Shown: positions 52,738 to 63,145 of the stretch, piece by piece
Layout of the letters: every line of letters starts with the position of its first letter
Numbering within the stretch: the stretch's first letter is position 1
Assembly: GCA_937973635.1 (NCBI GenBank)
Contig: CALJJZ010000035.1
Location: 107,513-171,512 of the forward strand
Direction: 5' to 3'
Length of the DNA: 64,000 nt
Source of the DNA: an uncultured Bacillota bacterium
Lineage (GTDB): Bacteria; Bacillota; Dethiobacteria; DTU022; UBA8154
Notes under the pieces: model-generated
The model's database searches: none
The model's input: only the letters and a program-made list of their open reading frames with translations
What the model was told of the DNA's origin: nothing
Made by a program: the position numbers and the translations under genes

Positions 52738-53751
52738 TTATGGGGACTTTGGAAAAAAGAGTTCATGCAGTGCAGCGGTATTTAACCTTTGTCCGATCAC
52801 ACAGAGCTTTCCCGTAGCAGCGGGAGCTGCGCGGCGTATATTTTTCTCTCCCGGTACATAATCAAAATTTATCCAGTGCCCGTCTTCGCCCTGCAAAACC
52901 CCCTTGGCCCTGATGATCTGACCGTAGCGGGGGGAATTCCCAAGCTCGTCCAGAATGCTGTGCAGTAGGTCTTCCTCGTAAAACATTGTTGTTTCTCTAC
53001 CCCAGGACTGGAAAGTTGCCTTAAGCAGATCTCTTTCTCCATGTTCGTAAGCATGGAGGCACCTTAAGCAACCAGCTTGCTCCTCCTGTGCATTATGAGA
53101 ACATAAAGGCAAGGATGCTTTTTCCCATAAGCTTTCCCAACCCTTTTTATCCCTCTTTTCGCTTAATTCTATAATCTGACGCCCTGAGAGCTGCTCCCAG
53201 GGCGTGGCAATGATCTTTGCCCCGGTGTTTAGTTTCCTGATGTTATCTATAATTAAATCTAGGAAACCTTTATCTGCTAGCTGAGTACGGCTAAGGATAA
53301 CTGTACCGGCCGCGGCGATCTGGTCCTTATAAAAATCGCCGAAGTTATCAAGGTAAGCCTGATAATTTAAACTATCAACCACGACAATCTTCATGTTTAG
53401 CGCGCCCTTCCCTGAGCGGTGTACAAAGTCTTGGACTGCGCTTATGACCTCCGATAGTTTTCCCAGGCCAGAGGGTTCAATTACGACCCGCTCAGGTTTA
53501 AAATTCTTTGTTAGCTCTTCCAGGGCCTCGCGCAAACTCCCCTGCAAACTGCAACAAATACAGCCGGAAGTGATCTCCTTGATCTCCAAAACAGTTTCTT
53601 TAAGCGTCTCCCCGTCTATGCCAATTTCTCCAAATTCATTTTCGATAAGTGCTACCTTTTCTTTATGTAGCTCTTCTGCCAGCAATTTTTTAATCAGCGT
53701 GGTCTTCCCAGCCCCTAAGAAGCCAGAGACGATGTCTATTTTAAGCTCCAA
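52738..53751 (-). CDS. CobW/G3E-family GTPase (metallochaperone)
   Basis: IVSGFLGAGKTTLIKKLL Walker A, GCICCSLQGSL (CxCC), VIEPSGLG. Confidence 0.92.
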   Translation of the reverse strand: MELKIDIVSGFLGAGKTTLIKKLLAEELHKEKVALIENEFGEIGIDGETLKETVLEIKEITSGCICCSLQGSLREALEELTKNFKPERVVIEPSGLGKLSEVISAVQDFVHRSGKGALNMKIVVVDSLNYQAYLDNFGDFYKDQIAAAGTVILSRTQLADKGFLDLIIDNIRKLNTGAKIIATPWEQLSGRQIIELSEKRDKKGWESLWEKASLPLCSHNAQEEQAGCLRCLHAYEHGERDLLKATFQSWGRETTMFYEEDLLHSILDELGNSPRYGQIIRAKGVLQGEDGHWINFDYVPGEKNIRRAAPAATGKLCVIGQRLNTAALHELFFPKSP

Positions 53752-54780: not shown

Positions 54781-56415
54781 ATGGGCGTTGCGCTGGAAAT
54801 TGTGGCCGGTTTTTTGGGCGCAGGCAAAACAACCGTAATCAACCAGATGTTGAAATCATACCTTGCAAACGGCCATAAAGTGTTGGTCATCCAGGGTGAA
54901 AGGGGAGAAAAAAACATAGACCAACAGGCCTACCAAAATACAGGCAGGCTTGTTGTTAAAACGGCAAAGGTTAAAGATCTAGATCCTTTGCAGCTGGTTC
55001 GCTGGCTAGAGGAGCATAAACCTGACAATTTGATTATTGAAAACAACGGCATGGAAGAGCTGGAACCCCTTTTAAAAAAATTAGAGCAACGTCCACTGCG
55101 AAAATATTGCCGCCTGCAAAGGATAATTTCCCTTGTAAAAGCCGGGACATTTAATCTTTATGCGGCAAACATAGGCAGGCTTTTTGGGGAACCGCTGTCA
55201 AAAGCAGATATGGTTATCCTCACAGCAACAGAAGGCCTGCCAGCAAAGGACTTGCGCCAAATTCAAAAGGAGATCTTAAAATTTAACGGTGACGCTGCTT
55301 TTTTACTCCTCCCTTCTGCCGCAAAAGCAGAAAAACAGTTTCCTGAAGAGAGTTTTTCTGCTGGAGGGAAAAGGGGGCTCTTTAGCACAGCTGACCCCCT
55401 AGTTTCTTTTGCTTTGCTTTACGCCATATTGTTGGTATTTGGTTTTATAGTCACTTTGAGGGTTTTTGATTATGCCCGGGGTGAACTTTACCTGGCCCGG
55501 GCCCAAATATTTATCACTATATTTGTCAGCATATTGCTCCAGGCTTTCCCTTTCATCATGATAGGGGTCTTGGTATCGGCGGCGATCCAGGTTTTTGTTC
55601 CCCAGCAATTTTTTAGCCGCCTCTTTTCGCGAAACGTTGTTTTTTCTACGGCGATAGCCGTAATGGCCGGCATTTTTTTCCCTGTCTGTGACTGTGCCAT
55701 TATCCCAGTTATGCGCCGGCTAGTTCAAAAAGGAGTCCCCCTTTCTGCAGCGCTTACATTTATGCTCGCTGCTCCCATAGTTGATCCGGTGGTAGTTGCT
55801 TCTACGGCCTACGCTTTCCCCGATAAGCCTTTTATAGCCCTCTACCGCCTTTCTTTAGGAGTGTTTATTGCCATCATTGCCGGCCTGATAATGCGTATTA
55901 TACCCTACAAGGGAGAAATTTTAAAAGGAGGCGCAGTGTTTAGCGCTTGTTCCTGTGGTTACTGCAGTCAAGCAGACTCGACAAGGGCAGACCCCCATCC
56001 CTTCACAGCCCGTATAAAGGGGATGATAAACCACGCCACAGCCGAATTCTTCCAGGTTGGGCAGTTCCTTGTCCTGGCTGCCGTGTTTTCTACTTATATT
56101 CAGACCAGCATCTCGCCGGCTACTGTGGCTTTTTTCGCTGGCAGCCCTGTCGGAGCGTTGCTGACGATGATGGGTTTTGCTTTCATTTTGTCTATCTGCT
56201 CCACTTCCGATGCTTTTATCGCCAGAAATTTTATCCACCAGTTTCCCCTGACGTCTATTCTGGGTTTTATGGTCTTTGGTGCGTTTTTGGACATCAAGAA
56301 TTTACTTTTGCTCTCTGGAAATTTTGCAGGCAGGTTTGTCGTTCACTTGGTCTTATTAATTGTAACGGTTTCCTTTATTGTACTCTCTTTATCAGGTAAA
56401 ATGTTGTTTTTTTAA
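54781..56415 (+). CDS. Fusion of CobW-like GTPase domain to UPF0718/DUF318-type permease
   Basis: N-term IVAGFLGAGKTTVINQML; C-term multi-TM with GIFFPVCDCAIIPVMRRLVQKGVPLSAALTFMLAAPIVDPVV. Confidence 0.88.
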   Translation: MGVALEIVAGFLGAGKTTVINQMLKSYLANGHKVLVIQGERGEKNIDQQAYQNTGRLVVKTAKVKDLDPLQLVRWLEEHKPDNLIIENNGMEELEPLLKKLEQRPLRKYCRLQRIISLVKAGTFNLYAANIGRLFGEPLSKADMVILTATEGLPAKDLRQIQKEILKFNGDAAFLLLPSAAKAEKQFPEESFSAGGKRGLFSTADPLVSFALLYAILLVFGFIVTLRVFDYARGELYLARAQIFITIFVSILLQAFPFIMIGVLVSAAIQVFVPQQFFSRLFSRNVVFSTAIAVMAGIFFPVCDCAIIPVMRRLVQKGVPLSAALTFMLAAPIVDPVVVASTAYAFPDKPFIALYRLSLGVFIAIIAGLIMRIIPYKGEILKGGAVFSACSCGYCSQADSTRADPHPFTARIKGMINHATAEFFQVGQFLVLAAVFSTYIQTSISPATVAFFAGSPVGALLTMMGFAFILSICSTSDAFIARNFIHQFPLTSILGFMVFGAFLDIKNLLLLSGNFAGRFVVHLVLLIVTVSFIVLSLSGKMLFF

Positions 56416-56447
56416 TATAAGTTAATATAAGTTATTGGGGAGAGGGT

Positions 56448-57257
56448 ATGATGAAGCTTTTTGGCGCTCGTTTCCTAAACCTGGATGCTTTGTTTAAAAC
56501 GGCCATACTCCTGGGCTTTACTATATTTTTTACCCAGACCATAATTACTGGTGAAGCGCTGGCCTATGTATCCCCCAAAATATTCCCCTTCATTAAATTC
56601 AGCGCTGCCATTATGGCCCTAATGGCCGTATTTTCTGCCGTAGATATAGTTAGAATTCCCCGTAAGCGACCCCGCATGACCACCTATACCCTTTTTGCCC
56701 TGTCTCTGGCCTTGGCTTTGCTTTTCCCTCCGGCCTTCCTCGGCGGCAGCGATCTTAAGGGGAGACAGGTAGATCTAGGCCTATACCGGACAGAAAACGG
56801 AGCAACCCGAGCTTCCGGCAACCTAGAACTAGGGCGGGCGGCGGAACAGCAAAGGCCGACAGGTCCAGGAGAGCCGCCGCCTGCTTTACAGGGGAACAAA
56901 ATTGTCTTTACAGAAGAAAATTTTTATTACTCGTTGTACTTGCTCTATCGAGAGGTGGAATATTACCAAGGAATAGAGGTGGAGATAAGCGGTTTTGTTT
57001 TTAAAGACGCATCTTTTGCAGCAGACGAGTTTGTCGTTTCACGTTTTGTCATGGTCTGCTGCACCGCCGATATGCAGCTGGCAGGCATAATGTGCCATTT
57101 CCCCGGATCGCAAGGGCTGGAAGAAAACACATGGGTCCGTGTTAAAGGAGTTTTGCAGCAAGGGACGTTTAGGGGAGAAACCATACCGGTCATAATCCCT
57201 GTGGAAATATCTCCCATTAATATGCCTGATCCGCCGTATGTGTATCCCAAATTCTAA
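56448..57257 (+). CDS. TIGR03943/DUF1980-type protein, partner of UPF0718 permease
   Basis: N-terminal TM helices then VEISGFVFKDASFAADEFVVSRFVMVCCTADMQLAGIMCHFPGSQGLEENTWVRVKGVLQ. Confidence 0.85.
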   Translation: MMKLFGARFLNLDALFKTAILLGFTIFFTQTIITGEALAYVSPKIFPFIKFSAAIMALMAVFSAVDIVRIPRKRPRMTTYTLFALSLALALLFPPAFLGGSDLKGRQVDLGLYRTENGATRASGNLELGRAAEQQRPTGPGEPPPALQGNKIVFTEENFYYSLYLLYREVEYYQGIEVEISGFVFKDASFAADEFVVSRFVMVCCTADMQLAGIMCHFPGSQGLEENTWVRVKGVLQQGTFRGETIPVIIPVEISPINMPDPPYVYPKF

Positions 57258-57334
57258 ACGGGGAGCAAGTTATAAATTTTTTTGGCAGCAAGCAGGAAAA
57301 TGAAAACAACAGGGAGAATAGTAATAAACAGTTG

Positions 57335-57361
57335 GTGTTACTAATTTAATAATAATAACAC
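57335..57361. promoter_or_regulatory. NikR-like inverted repeat upstream of fmdE-ABC operon
   Basis: GTGTTAC-N13-ATAACAC. Confidence 0.45.
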
Positions 57362-57415
57362 TGAGACAAAAAGGAGCAGAAAACAGGAAATTAGTTATTT
57401 TTTTTTGGTCCTTTA

Positions 57416-57442
57416 GTAACACAAAAACAAATTTAGTAATAC
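57416..57442. promoter_or_regulatory. Pair of same-orientation half-sites upstream of fmdE-ABC operon
   Basis: GTAACAC-N13-GTAATAC, same 13-nt spacing as the site at 57335. Confidence 0.4.
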
Positions 57443-57477
57443 CAGCACATAATTCCTTAGCAAAGGAGGATGCTTTT

Positions 57478-58464
57478 GTGTATGGTGGGGATATTTTTGC
57501 CAAATGGAGAGATAGAGAAATTACCTTCATTGGAGAAGGGGTAAAAGCGCAGTTTGACAATACCCAGCAGACTCCCCTGGGCTTTCAGTGGCGCGGGAGG
57601 CATTATGAAGTATTGAAGATGTTGCACAGCGCTAAAAACCCAGAAGGCCACTTGCAATATCTCTTGCTCACAGATGGGGGGATCTTTTCCCTCGCTTTGA
57701 AACGTGAAGAGAGCAAAGCTGACCTGTGTCGCAGCAGGTGGTTTTTAAATTTTCGTGTAAAGGACGAAAGGGAGGCGAACAGCAATGGCCCTAACTTTTC
57801 AAGTAGCAGTATCGAAATGAAAGGGTTGCTTCAGGGCAAAGAGCTAAGCCCTATCTCCCTGGTGCCTTTACTGCTGGCTAATGTGGCGTACTACCACGGC
57901 CATCTTTGCCCTGAGCTGGCTGTTGGGTACCGGGCCGCGCTAGTAGCTCAGGAAGAATTAGGCTTCTCCCGGCATAACGCCCACAATTTTTTTATAGTGG
58001 CCGAAAACATGACTTCGGCCATTGAAGCGCTGCAGCTCATCACAGGCTGCACCATCGGCAACCAGAACTTTTTTGCCTACGACCTAGGGAAACATGTCTA
58101 TTATTTCGGCAGTTATGCCACAGCACAAGAGCCAGGGAAAGCCTTGCGCCTGGCTTTGACAAACCTTGTTGTTGATCTTAGCCCCAAGGGCGAATTGGGA
58201 AGAAGGCTCTTCTCCGGAGAAGCGAACAGGGAGGAACAAAAGGAATACCAGCAGGCTATCAATGATGCGGTACAAAAGATTTTGCATCTTGCTCCACAGG
58301 ATCTATTTACAAAAACCAGGATCTCTTTACAACCACCTAGGGCTGGTGGACATTTGGATTATACCTGCTGTTCCCACTGCGGGGAGGTGACGGTAAGGGG
58401 AAAATGCCATCTCCTTGAAAATGGTTTTGTTTGCCCGGTCTGTTTCGCCAAAGCTAAAATGTAA
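57478..58464 (+). CDS. FmdE-family protein with N-terminal extension and C-terminal zinc ribbon
   Basis: YYHGHLCPELAVGYRAALVAQEELG...TGCTIGNQNFFAYDLGKHVYYF (FmdE core); C-term CCSHCGEVTVRGKCHLLENGFVCPVCF; GTG start after AAAGGAGG. Confidence 0.85.
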   Translation: MYGGDIFAKWRDREITFIGEGVKAQFDNTQQTPLGFQWRGRHYEVLKMLHSAKNPEGHLQYLLLTDGGIFSLALKREESKADLCRSRWFLNFRVKDEREANSNGPNFSSSSIEMKGLLQGKELSPISLVPLLLANVAYYHGHLCPELAVGYRAALVAQEELGFSRHNAHNFFIVAENMTSAIEALQLITGCTIGNQNFFAYDLGKHVYYFGSYATAQEPGKALRLALTNLVVDLSPKGELGRRLFSGEANREEQKEYQQAINDAVQKILHLAPQDLFTKTRISLQPPRAGGHLDYTCCSHCGEVTVRGKCHLLENGFVCPVCFAKAKM

Positions 58465-58632
58465 ACTAAAATGTCGCCGCTGTCTTTTACAAAACACAGG
58501 TCCCGTAGCAGGGCAACAATCGCTTTCTCTGCAGCGCCTTAACACAGCGCTAAAAAAAGCCATAATTTGTTGCTTCCCTGTCTTAGGTAATAAGGCATAA
58601 AAGCAAAAAAATTAGAGAAGGAAGGTACAAAA

Positions 58633-59844
58633 ATGAGCAGGAAAACAACAATAATGATAGCACTGTTAGTTGTAGTTGTTTTTCTAGGGGGGCTACTCCT
58701 TACAGGTTGTTCTAACATGGACAATAAGGGACAAAAAGACAATCAAGAAACGGTCCAGCAGAAGGATTCCACAAAGGGGCAGGAAAAACAGCCTACGGTT
58801 GGAGAAAAGCCTACAGTCGAAGAAAAGCTTACAATTAAAGATATGTTTGGCAGGGACGTAACTGTCCCCCAAAAAGTTGAAAGAGTAGTGGTTGTGGGTG
58901 GAGTATTAAACCATATGAATTGGTTACAAGTGGAAGACAGAGTAGTTGGCGTTGAGGAAATTGAAACCCGCCCTGATGAAAAATCTGGAGGAAGGGTCTA
59001 TCGCTGGGCTTTCCCTTCTTATGCCAGCCTCCCAAGTATAGGCCCTGCTGCCCGGCCCGATGCTGAAATGATATTAAGCGCCGCGCCAGAGGTCGTTTTC
59101 TTCGCCTCTTTAACACAGGATGCTGTTGAAAATTTACAAAGCCAGCTCACGCTGCCTGTTGTCGGCCTTCTCTATCCAGAGTTTAGCGAGGAAAGGGATA
59201 ATTTCTATAAACAGTTGCGGTTAGTAGCAAAAATTATGGACAGGGAAGAGCGAGGAGAAGAGCTTATAGGTTGGATTAACAAATCTTTAACCGATTTAAG
59301 CCAAAGAGCTAGCTTGCCAGATACTTTTGAAAAACCCAGCTGTTATGTGGGAGGGATTCTACAAGGGCCCGAGGGGACGGGGTTGACCTCCACCATGCCT
59401 TACTACCCGCCGTTTGTGATGTTGGAGGTGAAAAACGTAATATCTCCTGCTGATTTAGGGCTGCTAACTCCCGGGACATTAGGAAGATATACCGTTGATA
59501 TTGAATTTCTAGTGTCCAAAAATCCTGATTATATCTTTATTGACCGGGCAGGAACCGGGCCAACAAAGATGCAGTACGAGAACAACAAAGATGTTTTGAG
59601 GCACGTTAATGCTATAGCAAAAGAAAATGTTTACGGGCTACTGCCGTGGCATGCCTATAACAATAATGTGGAAACAATGTTTATCAATGCTTACTTCATT
59701 GGCAAGGTTATCTACCCCCATAAATTTACGGATATTGACCCCATTAAAAAAGCAGAGGAAGTCTATCAATTTTGGTATGGAAATTCAGTCTACAACAACT
59801 TGTCCAATGCTTTAGGCGGCGGGCTTAATAAATTTGACTTTTAA
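58633..59844 (+). CDS. Lipoprotein substrate-binding protein of a BtuF/FecB-type ABC transporter
   Basis: Lipobox LLLTGCSN; TIKDMFGRDVTVPQKVERVVVVGG; PEVVFFASL. Confidence 0.88.
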   Translation: MSRKTTIMIALLVVVVFLGGLLLTGCSNMDNKGQKDNQETVQQKDSTKGQEKQPTVGEKPTVEEKLTIKDMFGRDVTVPQKVERVVVVGGVLNHMNWLQVEDRVVGVEEIETRPDEKSGGRVYRWAFPSYASLPSIGPAARPDAEMILSAAPEVVFFASLTQDAVENLQSQLTLPVVGLLYPEFSEERDNFYKQLRLVAKIMDREERGEELIGWINKSLTDLSQRASLPDTFEKPSCYVGGILQGPEGTGLTSTMPYYPPFVMLEVKNVISPADLGLLTPGTLGRYTVDIEFLVSKNPDYIFIDRAGTGPTKMQYENNKDVLRHVNAIAKENVYGLLPWHAYNNNVETMFINAYFIGKVIYPHKFTDIDPIKKAEEVYQFWYGNSVYNNLSNALGGGLNKFDF

Positions 59845-59856
59845 GGGGGCGTCAAA

Positions 59857-60903
59857 GTGGTTGTAAAAGTGAATGAGGCCTTGGGCATAAACTATGAGTT
59901 AGAAAAATCTCCTCCTGCCCCTTATATTACCAGATACATGGATATGCTTAACTCTTGCCAGGAGCTGGCCATATTTTCTTTGGGCATAAAAAGCGGCTTA
60001 TTTGCCCAGTTAAAAGAAGGACATACAATAAAGGAACTTTTGAGTAAAACTAACTGGCATGAAGCAATTGCCCATCGTTTACTGCAGTGCATGTATGCCT
60101 ATGGTTTTATAAATAAACACGGGAAATATTATAAAAACAGTGTTTTTACAAACAATTTTGCCACATCGTCCTCACCTTTTGCCCAGCTAAGGACATTATC
60201 TGCTGTGCACTTTAACCAAGATATGCATACTAGAATTATTAATGCCTTAAACGGCCCTCCTAAAGAAAAAGTGCCCATTACTGAAGTTTTTAATGCCCCT
60301 GTTCTTTTAAGTATGGCGGAGCATTGCATTAGGGGAGGACTCCAGCAAACTGTTTCCTTTTTATGTAGGCATAAAAAGGTTAGAGAAGCCAAGAAGATGC
60401 TTGATCTAGGGGGTGGCCACTCTCTGTACACTATTGCTTTAACGAGACGCAACCCTGAGCTCAGAGCAGTGCTCTTCGATCTCCCAGACGTAGTGGAAGG
60501 GGCAGCTAAACCTGTCGTCAAAAGCTATGGTGCCGAGAGAATTGATTTCATCAAAGGCGATTTTATGAAAGACGATATCGGCAACAACTATGATCTGGTT
60601 CTTTGCTCCGATGTACTGCACAGGCCAGAAAAAGAAATTTTGTTTATCCTTACAAAAATTAACACAGCGATGCAAGAGGGTGGCTTGTTGGCTGTGAAGG
60701 AAACCCATTTGAATGATTTAAAAAAGAACCGTTTTGCCGCTTACTTTTCCTTGGTTCTCTCTACTTTTGATCCAGAGCAAAGGATTTTTTCCAGCAAGGG
60801 CTTTAATGCAATAATAGAACGTTCGGGATTTAAAGTCCGGGCCAACATTGCCCTTGAGGCGGCATCTGATTCATCATATCTGACACTGGCAGAGAGGGTG
60901 TAA
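59857..60903 (+). CDS. SAM-dependent methyltransferase (O-methyltransferase-like, with N-terminal dimerisation domain)
   Basis: MLDLGGGHSLYTIALTRRNPELRAVLFDLPDVV, IDFIKGDFMKDDIGNNYDLVLCSDVLH. Confidence 0.85.
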   Translation: MVVKVNEALGINYELEKSPPAPYITRYMDMLNSCQELAIFSLGIKSGLFAQLKEGHTIKELLSKTNWHEAIAHRLLQCMYAYGFINKHGKYYKNSVFTNNFATSSSPFAQLRTLSAVHFNQDMHTRIINALNGPPKEKVPITEVFNAPVLLSMAEHCIRGGLQQTVSFLCRHKKVREAKKMLDLGGGHSLYTIALTRRNPELRAVLFDLPDVVEGAAKPVVKSYGAERIDFIKGDFMKDDIGNNYDLVLCSDVLHRPEKEILFILTKINTAMQEGGLLAVKETHLNDLKKNRFAAYFSLVLSTFDPEQRIFSSKGFNAIIERSGFKVRANIALEAASDSSYLTLAERV

Positions 60904-60909
60904 GAAAGT

Positions 60910-61275
60910 ATGAAAAGATTTTCTTCTGCACAACAAAAAAGCTTTAACACTCCTGAAGGCGTAATGACACCGCTGTCAGCCAATGAGGACTTCTCTATTA
61001 TAAGAATAAATATGCCCAAAGGGCTTTGGGTAGAACGCCACTCCCACCAGAAAGCAGTAATCGTCCTGGTTACCAAAGGGCAAATTCTTTTTGACGATGG
61101 AGAAAGCCATCTTGCCAACAGCAACGATGTTTTAGAATACGGAGCTGAAGAAGAGATTGGCTTTAAAGCACTGGAAGATTCTGAAGCTATCTTTATAACC
61201 AAGGAACCTACATGGCCTTCACTAGAAAGTATTTATGATTTGTTCCAAAGTTTGGGCATAAAGGAGTCTGTTTGA
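60910..61275 (+). CDS. Small cupin-domain protein
   Basis: MPKGLWVERHSHQKAVIVLVTKGQILFDDGESHLANSNDVLEYGAEEEIGFKALEDSEAIFI. Confidence 0.8.
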   Translation: MKRFSSAQQKSFNTPEGVMTPLSANEDFSIIRINMPKGLWVERHSHQKAVIVLVTKGQILFDDGESHLANSNDVLEYGAEEEIGFKALEDSEAIFITKEPTWPSLESIYDLFQSLGIKESV

Positions 61276-62396
61276 CACCCAGGAAGAATAGGGAGACAAA
61301 AATGTTAAACGAATGTATGCCACAAAAAAAAGCTTTAGCGGAGGCCTCTGCCTTATATTTTGCTTATGTGCGCAAAAAAAATATTTTTTTGCTAGCCTCA
61401 GCATGTTTAATCATCGCTTTGACTTTTATTTCAATAACCCTGGGTTATGCCCAAATAACAGTTCAGGAGATATACAACGCCATATTTTATCCCAATCCTG
61501 CTAATATCTTGCATACAATAATACTTAATGTCAGGCTCCCAAGGGTATTGTTAGCTATTATTTCAGGGGCAGTATTAGCTGCAGCCGGAGCTGTTATGCA
61601 ATGTATCTTAAGAAATCCCTTGGCTTCTCCGTACACTATGGGTATTTCTCAGTCAGCCGCTTTTGGCGCCGCTTTCGGCATCATTGTCTTAAATGGTGGA
61701 CATCTTCAAGGATTTTCAAATAGCCCCATAATTGTTAATAACCCCTATATAGTTACTACTTCTGCCTTTCTCTGGTCTTTAATTAGCGTCATTGCTATCC
61801 TGGCACTGGCAAAATTAACTAGGATCACTCCGGAAGCAATGATCCTGGCCGGCGTGGCAATTTCAGCTATCTTTACTGCTGCCATCACCGTGCTGCAATA
61901 TATTGCTGATACAATCCAATTATCTTCTATTGTCTACTGGACTTTTGGCGACCTGGGACGGGCAAATTGGGCGCACCTTTTTTTATTATTAGCTGTAAGT
62001 GTACCTGTCTTACTGTATTTTATTTGGAACCGTTGGCATTACAATGCTCTGGATGCAGGGGATGAAACTGCTAAAGCCCTTGGCGTTAATATTGAGTCCA
62101 TAAGAATATTTGGTCTTCTTACTTCTTCTTTAGTCACCTCCGTAGTTGTTTCTTTCGTGGGCGTTATTGGTTTTATTGGATTGCTGGGCCCCCATATAGT
62201 GAAAAAGTTTATCGGCATTGATAATAGACACATGCTGCCAGGCTCATTATTGTTGGGGGCGCTCATTTTGCTCAGCTCAGATACATTGGCCAGGACCATG
62301 TTTTCACCAATGGTTCTACCCGTAGGGGTCCTAACCTCTTTTATGGGAGGGCCTTTGTTTTTATACATCTTAGCCATGAGGTACAAAAAAAGATGA
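61272..62396 (+). CDS. FecCD/BtuC-type ABC transporter permease
   Basis: LNVRLPRVLLAIISGAVLAAAGAVMQCILRNPLASPYTMGISQSAAFGAAFGI; FVGVIGFIGLLGPHIVKKFIGIDNR. Confidence 0.95.
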   Translation: MTPRKNRETKMLNECMPQKKALAEASALYFAYVRKKNIFLLASACLIIALTFISITLGYAQITVQEIYNAIFYPNPANILHTIILNVRLPRVLLAIISGAVLAAAGAVMQCILRNPLASPYTMGISQSAAFGAAFGIIVLNGGHLQGFSNSPIIVNNPYIVTTSAFLWSLISVIAILALAKLTRITPEAMILAGVAISAIFTAAITVLQYIADTIQLSSIVYWTFGDLGRANWAHLFLLLAVSVPVLLYFIWNRWHYNALDAGDETAKALGVNIESIRIFGLLTSSLVTSVVVSFVGVIGFIGLLGPHIVKKFIGIDNRHMLPGSLLLGALILLSSDTLARTMFSPMVLPVGVLTSFMGGPLFLYILAMRYKKR

Positions 62397-63145
62397 TCTT
62401 GGATGTGCAAGGAGTTAAATTTGGGTATCGCAGCGCAAATATTCTTGACAATATTTGCTTCCAAGTTGCCAGAAAAGAAATTGTAACCATTCTCGGCCCT
62501 AATGGGGTAGGAAAAACGACATTGTTAAAATGCATTAACCGTATCTTGTCCCCAAGAGGCGGGACAGTAATGATTGACAAAGAGGACACACGTAATCTAT
62601 CCAGGAATGAATTGGCAAAGCGCCTAGGCTATATACCCCAGCGAGTTGAGGTAAGCAAAATGAAAGTTTATGATGCGTTGTTACTGGGCAGAAAGCCTTA
62701 TATCTCCTGGGATATTTCCAAAAAAGATACACTGATAGTAGATGAAGTTATCTCCTCGCTAGACCTTACCAATATAGCACTGAGGGATTTAGATGAAATC
62801 AGCGGTGGAGAGATGCAAAAAGTTCAGATTGCTCGTGCTTTAGTTCAAGAGCCCAAACTTTTGCTCATGGATGAACCCACATCGATGTTAGATCTAAAAA
62901 ACCAACATGCCATAATGAACTTGGTCCTTAAAGAAGCAATGAAACGAGGGATATCCTTGGTTATGACTTTGCATGACATTAATTTCGCCCTTAGATATTC
63001 CCAAAAGTTTGTTATGATGCGTGAAGGAAGAATTATGTATGCTGGAAATAGCAACATCGTAAATATAGATACAATAGAAGATATCTACGGCATAAAAGTG
63101 GATATTATACAGCATAACGGTTTCAAAATAGTAGTCCCCCTTTAG
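62393..63145 (+). CDS. FecE/BtuD-type ABC transporter ATPase
   Basis: GPNGVGKTTLLKCINRIL, EISGGEMQKVQIARALVQEPKLLLMDEPTSMLD. Confidence 0.95.
   Translation: MILDVQGVKFGYRSANILDNICFQVARKEIVTILGPNGVGKTTLLKCINRILSPRGGTVMIDKEDTRNLSRNELAKRLGYIPQRVEVSKMKVYDALLLGRKPYISWDISKKDTLIVDEVISSLDLTNIALRDLDEISGGEMQKVQIARALVQEPKLLLMDEPTSMLDLKNQHAIMNLVLKEAMKRGISLVMTLHDINFALRYSQKFVMMREGRIMYAGNSNIVNIDTIEDIYGIKVDIIQHNGFKIVVPL

Follow-up and report, generated by a model that had tools for sequence, protein, structure and literature searches.

In delta-proteobacteria, the consensus of the NikR operator is GTGTTAC-[N13/14]-GTAACAC, and everted sites are also described (Rodionov and colleagues, PMC545781). For the NikR of H. 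pylori, PMC5385501 gives two conserved pentamers, TRTTA and TAWTA, that are 15 nt apart and fit a predicted TRWYA dyad, with their centres 20 nt apart, in accord with one NikR tetramer lying over two helical turns. In the same organism, nickel is imported by NiuBDE (CeuE/FecDE), which belongs to the transporter family considered here; NikR regulates ceuE according to nickel, and the promoter of fecDE is a possible NikR target as well (PMC5140060). Regarding the FmdE family (PF02663), a solved member has mixed Zn/Ni at an HGHxC-type site, and metal-ion transporter genes are found beside most members (PMC2954224); that protein was passed over nickel resin, and the nickel may stem from purification. 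A non-exhaustive search of the open-access literature found no paper linking NikR with FmdE.

Two paired half-sites upstream of a FecCD-type importer operon

The window, the whole 64-kb stretch of DNA analyzed here, contains an operon (57478 to 63145, forward strand) preceded on the same strand by two elements that can be read directly from the sequence. W1 (57335 to 57361) is the inverted repeat GTGTTAC-TAATTTAATAATA-ATAACAC, located 143 to 117 nt ahead of the GTG start at 57478, and W2 (57416 to 57442) is the direct repeat GTAACAC-AAAAACAAATTTA-GTAATAC, located 62 to 36 nt ahead of it. An earlier sequence-only reading had placed both elements at these positions and the start codon at 57478; direct reading bears out the positions of the elements, and the start has a Shine-Dalgarno AAAGGAGG just 5' of it. 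The same reading had treated both elements as one type of repeat, which is wrong, dyad symmetry being present in W1 and absent in W2, where GTAACAC and GTAATAC share one direction. It had also held the identical spacing to argue against chance. Indeed, the spacer is 13 nt in both elements, and in 20,000 dinucleotide-preserving shuffles of the intergenic region (57258 to 57477; 220 bp, 31% GC) one pair appeared in 67 and two pairs in a single shuffle. Moreover, in a scan of the window for half-sites with at most one mismatch to GTGTTAC or GTAACAC, at a spacing of 13 or 14 and in any orientation, W1 and W2 are the only pairs.

Both elements have the geometry of NikR operators, that is, GTRWYAC half-sites with a TRWYA core, a 13- or 14-nt spacer and centres 20 or 21 bp apart. 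All four half-sites match the core (TGTTA, TAACA, TAACA, and TAATA), and GTRWYAC-N13-GTRWYAC corresponds to the same geometry as the H. pylori sites. Since the degenerate TRWYA is its own reverse complement and the geometry is shared, we infer that inversion is not required for W2 to serve as a NikR site. Compared with GTGTTAC-N13-GTAACAC, W1 has one mismatch, an A for G at the first base of its second half-site. The sequence-only reading had given the consensus as GTGTTAC-N13/15-GTAACAC, which is right in essence, the spacing in PMC545781 being N13/14.

In pattern searches of the 2.56-Mb genome, W1 is the sole site with at most one mismatch to GTGTTAC-N13-GTAACAC, and the exact pattern GTRTTAC-N-GTAAYAC has no match because W1 ends in ATAACAC. 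When three mismatches are allowed, the motif is found 55 times versus 94 for a reversed control; without enrichment, such weak matches are uninformative, and only strong sites were used. By contrast with its reversed control, which gave none, the pattern GTAACACN{13,14}RTAAYAC has three matches, each before an FmdE-containing operon: W2 itself; a site on contig 47, 109 nt before an operon encoding a methyltransferase, an SBP_bac_5 protein, FmdE and a NikB-like permease, which thus includes a transporter of the peptide/nickel type; and a site on contig 86, before an FmdE gene. The half-site make-up of W2 recurs at G000:C47:50759-50785 and in locus L052 at 3905.

A promoter scan of the intergenic region yielded a single weak candidate that overlaps W1, no more than expected from shuffles. 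The Rfam search of the region detected a tRNA and no riboswitch or other structured RNA, which speaks against control of that kind.

The operon and its neighborhood

The first gene (57478 to 58464) encodes an FmdE-family protein with PF02663 at residues 140 to 278 (Pfam E 1.5e-27), which keeps HGHxC and was aligned to PDB codes 2glz and 2gvi. It is followed by a substrate-binding lipoprotein of the Peripla_BP_2 family, FecB/BtuF/CeuE type (58633 to 59844, E 3e-16), an O-methyltransferase (Methyltransf_2; 59857 to 60903, E 3e-17), a small cupin-like protein of 121 aa with sub-threshold cupin matches alone (60910 to 61275, best E 0.016), a FecCD-family ABC permease (61272 to 62396, E 1.5e-87) and an ABC transporter ATPase of the FecE/BtuD type (62393 to 63145, E 3.6e-32). 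By Pfam, a Peripla_BP_2 lipoprotein, a FecCD permease and an ATPase in one operon are the make-up of a FecCD-type metal-chelate importer. NCBIfam assigns no substrate to the transporter, every match being far under its cut-off; the relatives of the ATPase are heme, iron, and B12 ATPases, all likewise under their cut-offs. Iron siderophores, heme or B12 are the more frequent cargo of FecCD-type transporters, which counts against a nickel reading.

On the 5' side of the operators, a separate gene pair (54781 to 57257) ends just before W1; its first product is a CobW GTPase fused to an ArsP_1 permease, its second a DUF1980/TIGR03943 protein. Another CobW gene is present at 52738 to 53751, and the neighborhood of the operators looks metal-related.

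NikR in the genome and its relatives

A nikR gene had been expected in this genome, and a single copy of the RHH type was found (G000:C50:7141-7371; PF08753, E 3e-31). Its product aligns over the full length with solved NikR structures and keeps the four nickel-ligand positions known from E. coli NikR (His, His, His, and Cys). The gene stands away from transport genes, and no site was found at its promoter. NikR is encoded in 53 of 60 relatives, including all 12 genomes with the inverted motif; with such a base rate, co-occurrence of regulator and motif is by itself weak evidence. Several site-bearing genomes are drafts, and in two of them, G025 (82% complete) and G056 (79% complete), nikR was not detected.

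Conservation of the sites within the class

Of 31 half-site pairs located ahead of FmdE genes in related genomes, 26 have a spacing of 13 (15 pairs) or 14 (11 pairs), and five fall at any of the other spacings between 3 and 35; this count takes in the two pairs of the window, a number of named loci and, in two cases, the upstream of a methyltransferase gene heading such an operon. In the whole-genome set, with the window locus excluded, a pair precedes 19 of 28 FmdE genes, compared with a shuffle mean of 0.09 and a maximum of 2. As a control, the 1-kb stretches downstream of the same FmdE genes contain a site in 5 of 28 cases, not all of them assigned to genes.

Homologues of the SBP, FecCD, and ATPase genes are preceded by perfect sites in two operons of G004, a genome of the same genus, and in G038, G055, and G056, and by a one-mismatch site in G019. 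In G025 and G026, FmdE and FecCD genes share one operon with a perfect site. Among unselected upstreams of SBP homologues in the class, 8 of 19 have a pair within 1.5 kb, and 9 of 23 pairs in the SBP-homologue upstreams have a spacing of 13 or 14; distances from site to gene in this set rest on chosen start codons, the one in G025 being assumed. The second G004 operon (L160) encodes a DUF4198 protein, which we take to be NikK-like, and ends with an O-methyltransferase of the window's family, 30% identical to that of the window. Sites are also found before a NikB-like permease gene (G004 and G005), a CbiM/NikM-type gene (L042 at 4815) and a DUF4198 gene (G012). The recurrence of the motif ahead of homologous operons and of nik/cbi-type genes, both named as checks by the sequence-only reading, is observed, the former within the class and at strict spacing.

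Outside the class, the picture differs. Across the phylum, sites were found in only 1 of 30 FmdE loci; the orthologous FmdE locus of Desulfovirgula (L043) has no site, and in those of Desulfofundulus (L044 and L045) the half-sites are imperfect. A general link between FmdE and this half-site across the phylum is unsupported, and because the sites are nearly absent there, the link is shown within the class only.

Read on the coding strand, 34 collected sites comprise 18 direct repeats of the GTAACAC-GTAACAC type, 12 inverted, 2 everted, and 2 direct repeats of opposite polarity. Direct repeats are the commonest form in this set (20 of 34), and one polarity prevails among them by 18 to 2 (binomial p 0.0004). 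As the set was put together manually from related genomes and treats related sites as independent, this polarity is to be taken as a lead.

Other loci in the set deserve mention. In L158 (5218 to 6705; G004:C17), the binding protein encoded in a homologous operon has a copper amine oxidase N-terminal domain in addition, and a perfect inverted site lies upstream. In L048 (8823 to 8960 and 10001 to 10626; G019:C187), three NikR-type sites are followed by what is left of a counterpart of the window's binding-protein gene and by an FmdE gene with a broken frame, which suggests a decayed copy of the window operon. The first of two tandem FmdE genes in L047 (1935 to 2300; G014:C39:24314-24541) has an in-frame TGA within the match, which may reflect decay or a selenocysteine codon. 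A NikR-type site in L064 (507 to 533; G022:C204) lies about 40 nt before a putative ECF transporter substrate component, whose family was assigned by eye. Finally, a one-mismatch inverted NikR-type site in L085 (4442 to 4468; G010:C145) lies upstream of two magnesium-chelatase-like genes (AAA and VWA) followed by an ABC ATPase; a role of these genes as a nickel or cobalt chelatase is conceivable.

Proposed regulation and alternative explanations

The comparative evidence, namely the presence of nikR, the published consensus, and the conservation at strict spacing, strongly supports the earlier proposal that the elements would be NikR operators. Very probably, W1 and W2 are operators through which NikR would repress the operon at 57478 to 63145, whose products would import nickel or a nickel chelate. 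When nickel is sufficient, a nickel-loaded NikR tetramer would contact a pair of GTRWYAC half-sites through its two ribbon-helix-helix domains, spanning the two helical turns that correspond to centres 20 bp apart, and the operon would be off; when nickel is scarce, repression would be lifted and the operon expressed. Both the binding of NikR and repression rather than activation are what we infer for this locus. The lipoprotein, the FecCD-type permease, and the ATPase would form the importer, with nickel as its presumed substrate on the grounds of the regulation and the NiuBDE precedent, and the FmdE-family protein, the methyltransferase, and the cupin-like protein would be accessory members of the operon. 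Nickel would then be the likely substrate of an importer that had none assigned, and of its counterparts in homologous operons of a class of anaerobic Bacillota. Also, PF02663, a family of unknown function named from methanogenesis, would be tied to nickel through regulation in many genomes.

A broader proposal is tentative, being plausible although somewhat less likely to hold than to fail. In the class, FmdE-family proteins would belong to the core of the NikR regulon and take part in the uptake or delivery of nickel, the methyltransferases may supply the FecCD importer with a nickel-binding metabolite by making or modifying it, and NikR would read mostly a direct-repeat operator whose half-sites keep one orientation with respect to the gene (18 of 20 direct repeats).

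Among the alternatives, the one that survives best, although improbable, is that the elements are NikR operators but the transporter serves cobalt, a corrinoid, or both metals, NikR merely coupling it to nickel status. The best scores of the FecCD permease are with BtuC models, far under the cut-off, and the site-bearing ECF operon of L042 is annotated as cobalt CbiM/CbiN, also under cut-offs. Nonetheless, NikR is a nickel sensor, the region lacks a cobalamin riboswitch, and genes of the NikA/NikB type and DUF4198 genes have the same sites ahead of them; with the NiuBDE precedent, nickel is favored over cobalt. Quite unlikely is a different regulator with the same half-site geometry, sensing for instance iron, molybdate/tungstate, or a methylated metabolite. 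The assignment to NikR comes from sequence rather than biochemistry, the name FmdE recalls molybdenum enzymes, and two site-bearing drafts yielded no nikR, but the match to the published consensus and spacing, the occurrence of NikR in 53 of 60 relatives and in every genome with the inverted motif, and the nickel-type genes under the same sites argue against it. Chance half-sites, for which the low GC content of the tract and the abundance of three-mismatch matches in the genome could be invoked, are opposed by the shuffles and already refuted by the fixed-spacing conservation in related operons.

Comparison with known NikR systems

The proposed NikR operators resemble those of metal-reducing delta-proteobacteria (PMC545781) in their GTGTTAC/GTAACAC half-sites at N13/14, W1 being one base off. 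However, the genes downstream are nikMNQO/nikK and a hydrogenase in those organisms, instead of FecCD and FmdE, and direct repeats such as W2 are absent from the table of that study. With the E. coli NikR-nikABCDE system, the locus would share a nickel-dependent RHH repressor of a nickel importer, whereas the E. coli operator is GTATGA-N16-TCATAC (PMC7055735) and the transporter there is of the peptide/nickel type rather than FecCD. Inverted half-sites are found in E. coli and in the majority of delta-proteobacterial sites; W1 shares this symmetry and W2 does not. Compared with the PF02663 family as described in the available part of PMC2954224, which makes no link to NikR, the window protein has the domain with HGHxC and a downstream Cys, but differs in about 135 extra N-terminal residues. 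In H. pylori, as far as the accessible text of PMC5385501 and PMC5140060 goes, ceuE/niuB is a transcription unit apart from niuDE, and that text does not name FmdE, a methyltransferase, or a cupin; yet it describes TRWYA-type half-sites with the same centre distance, and a CeuE-type binding protein and FecCD-type permease with ceuE under NikR (PMC5140060), an arrangement to which the window operon would correspond.
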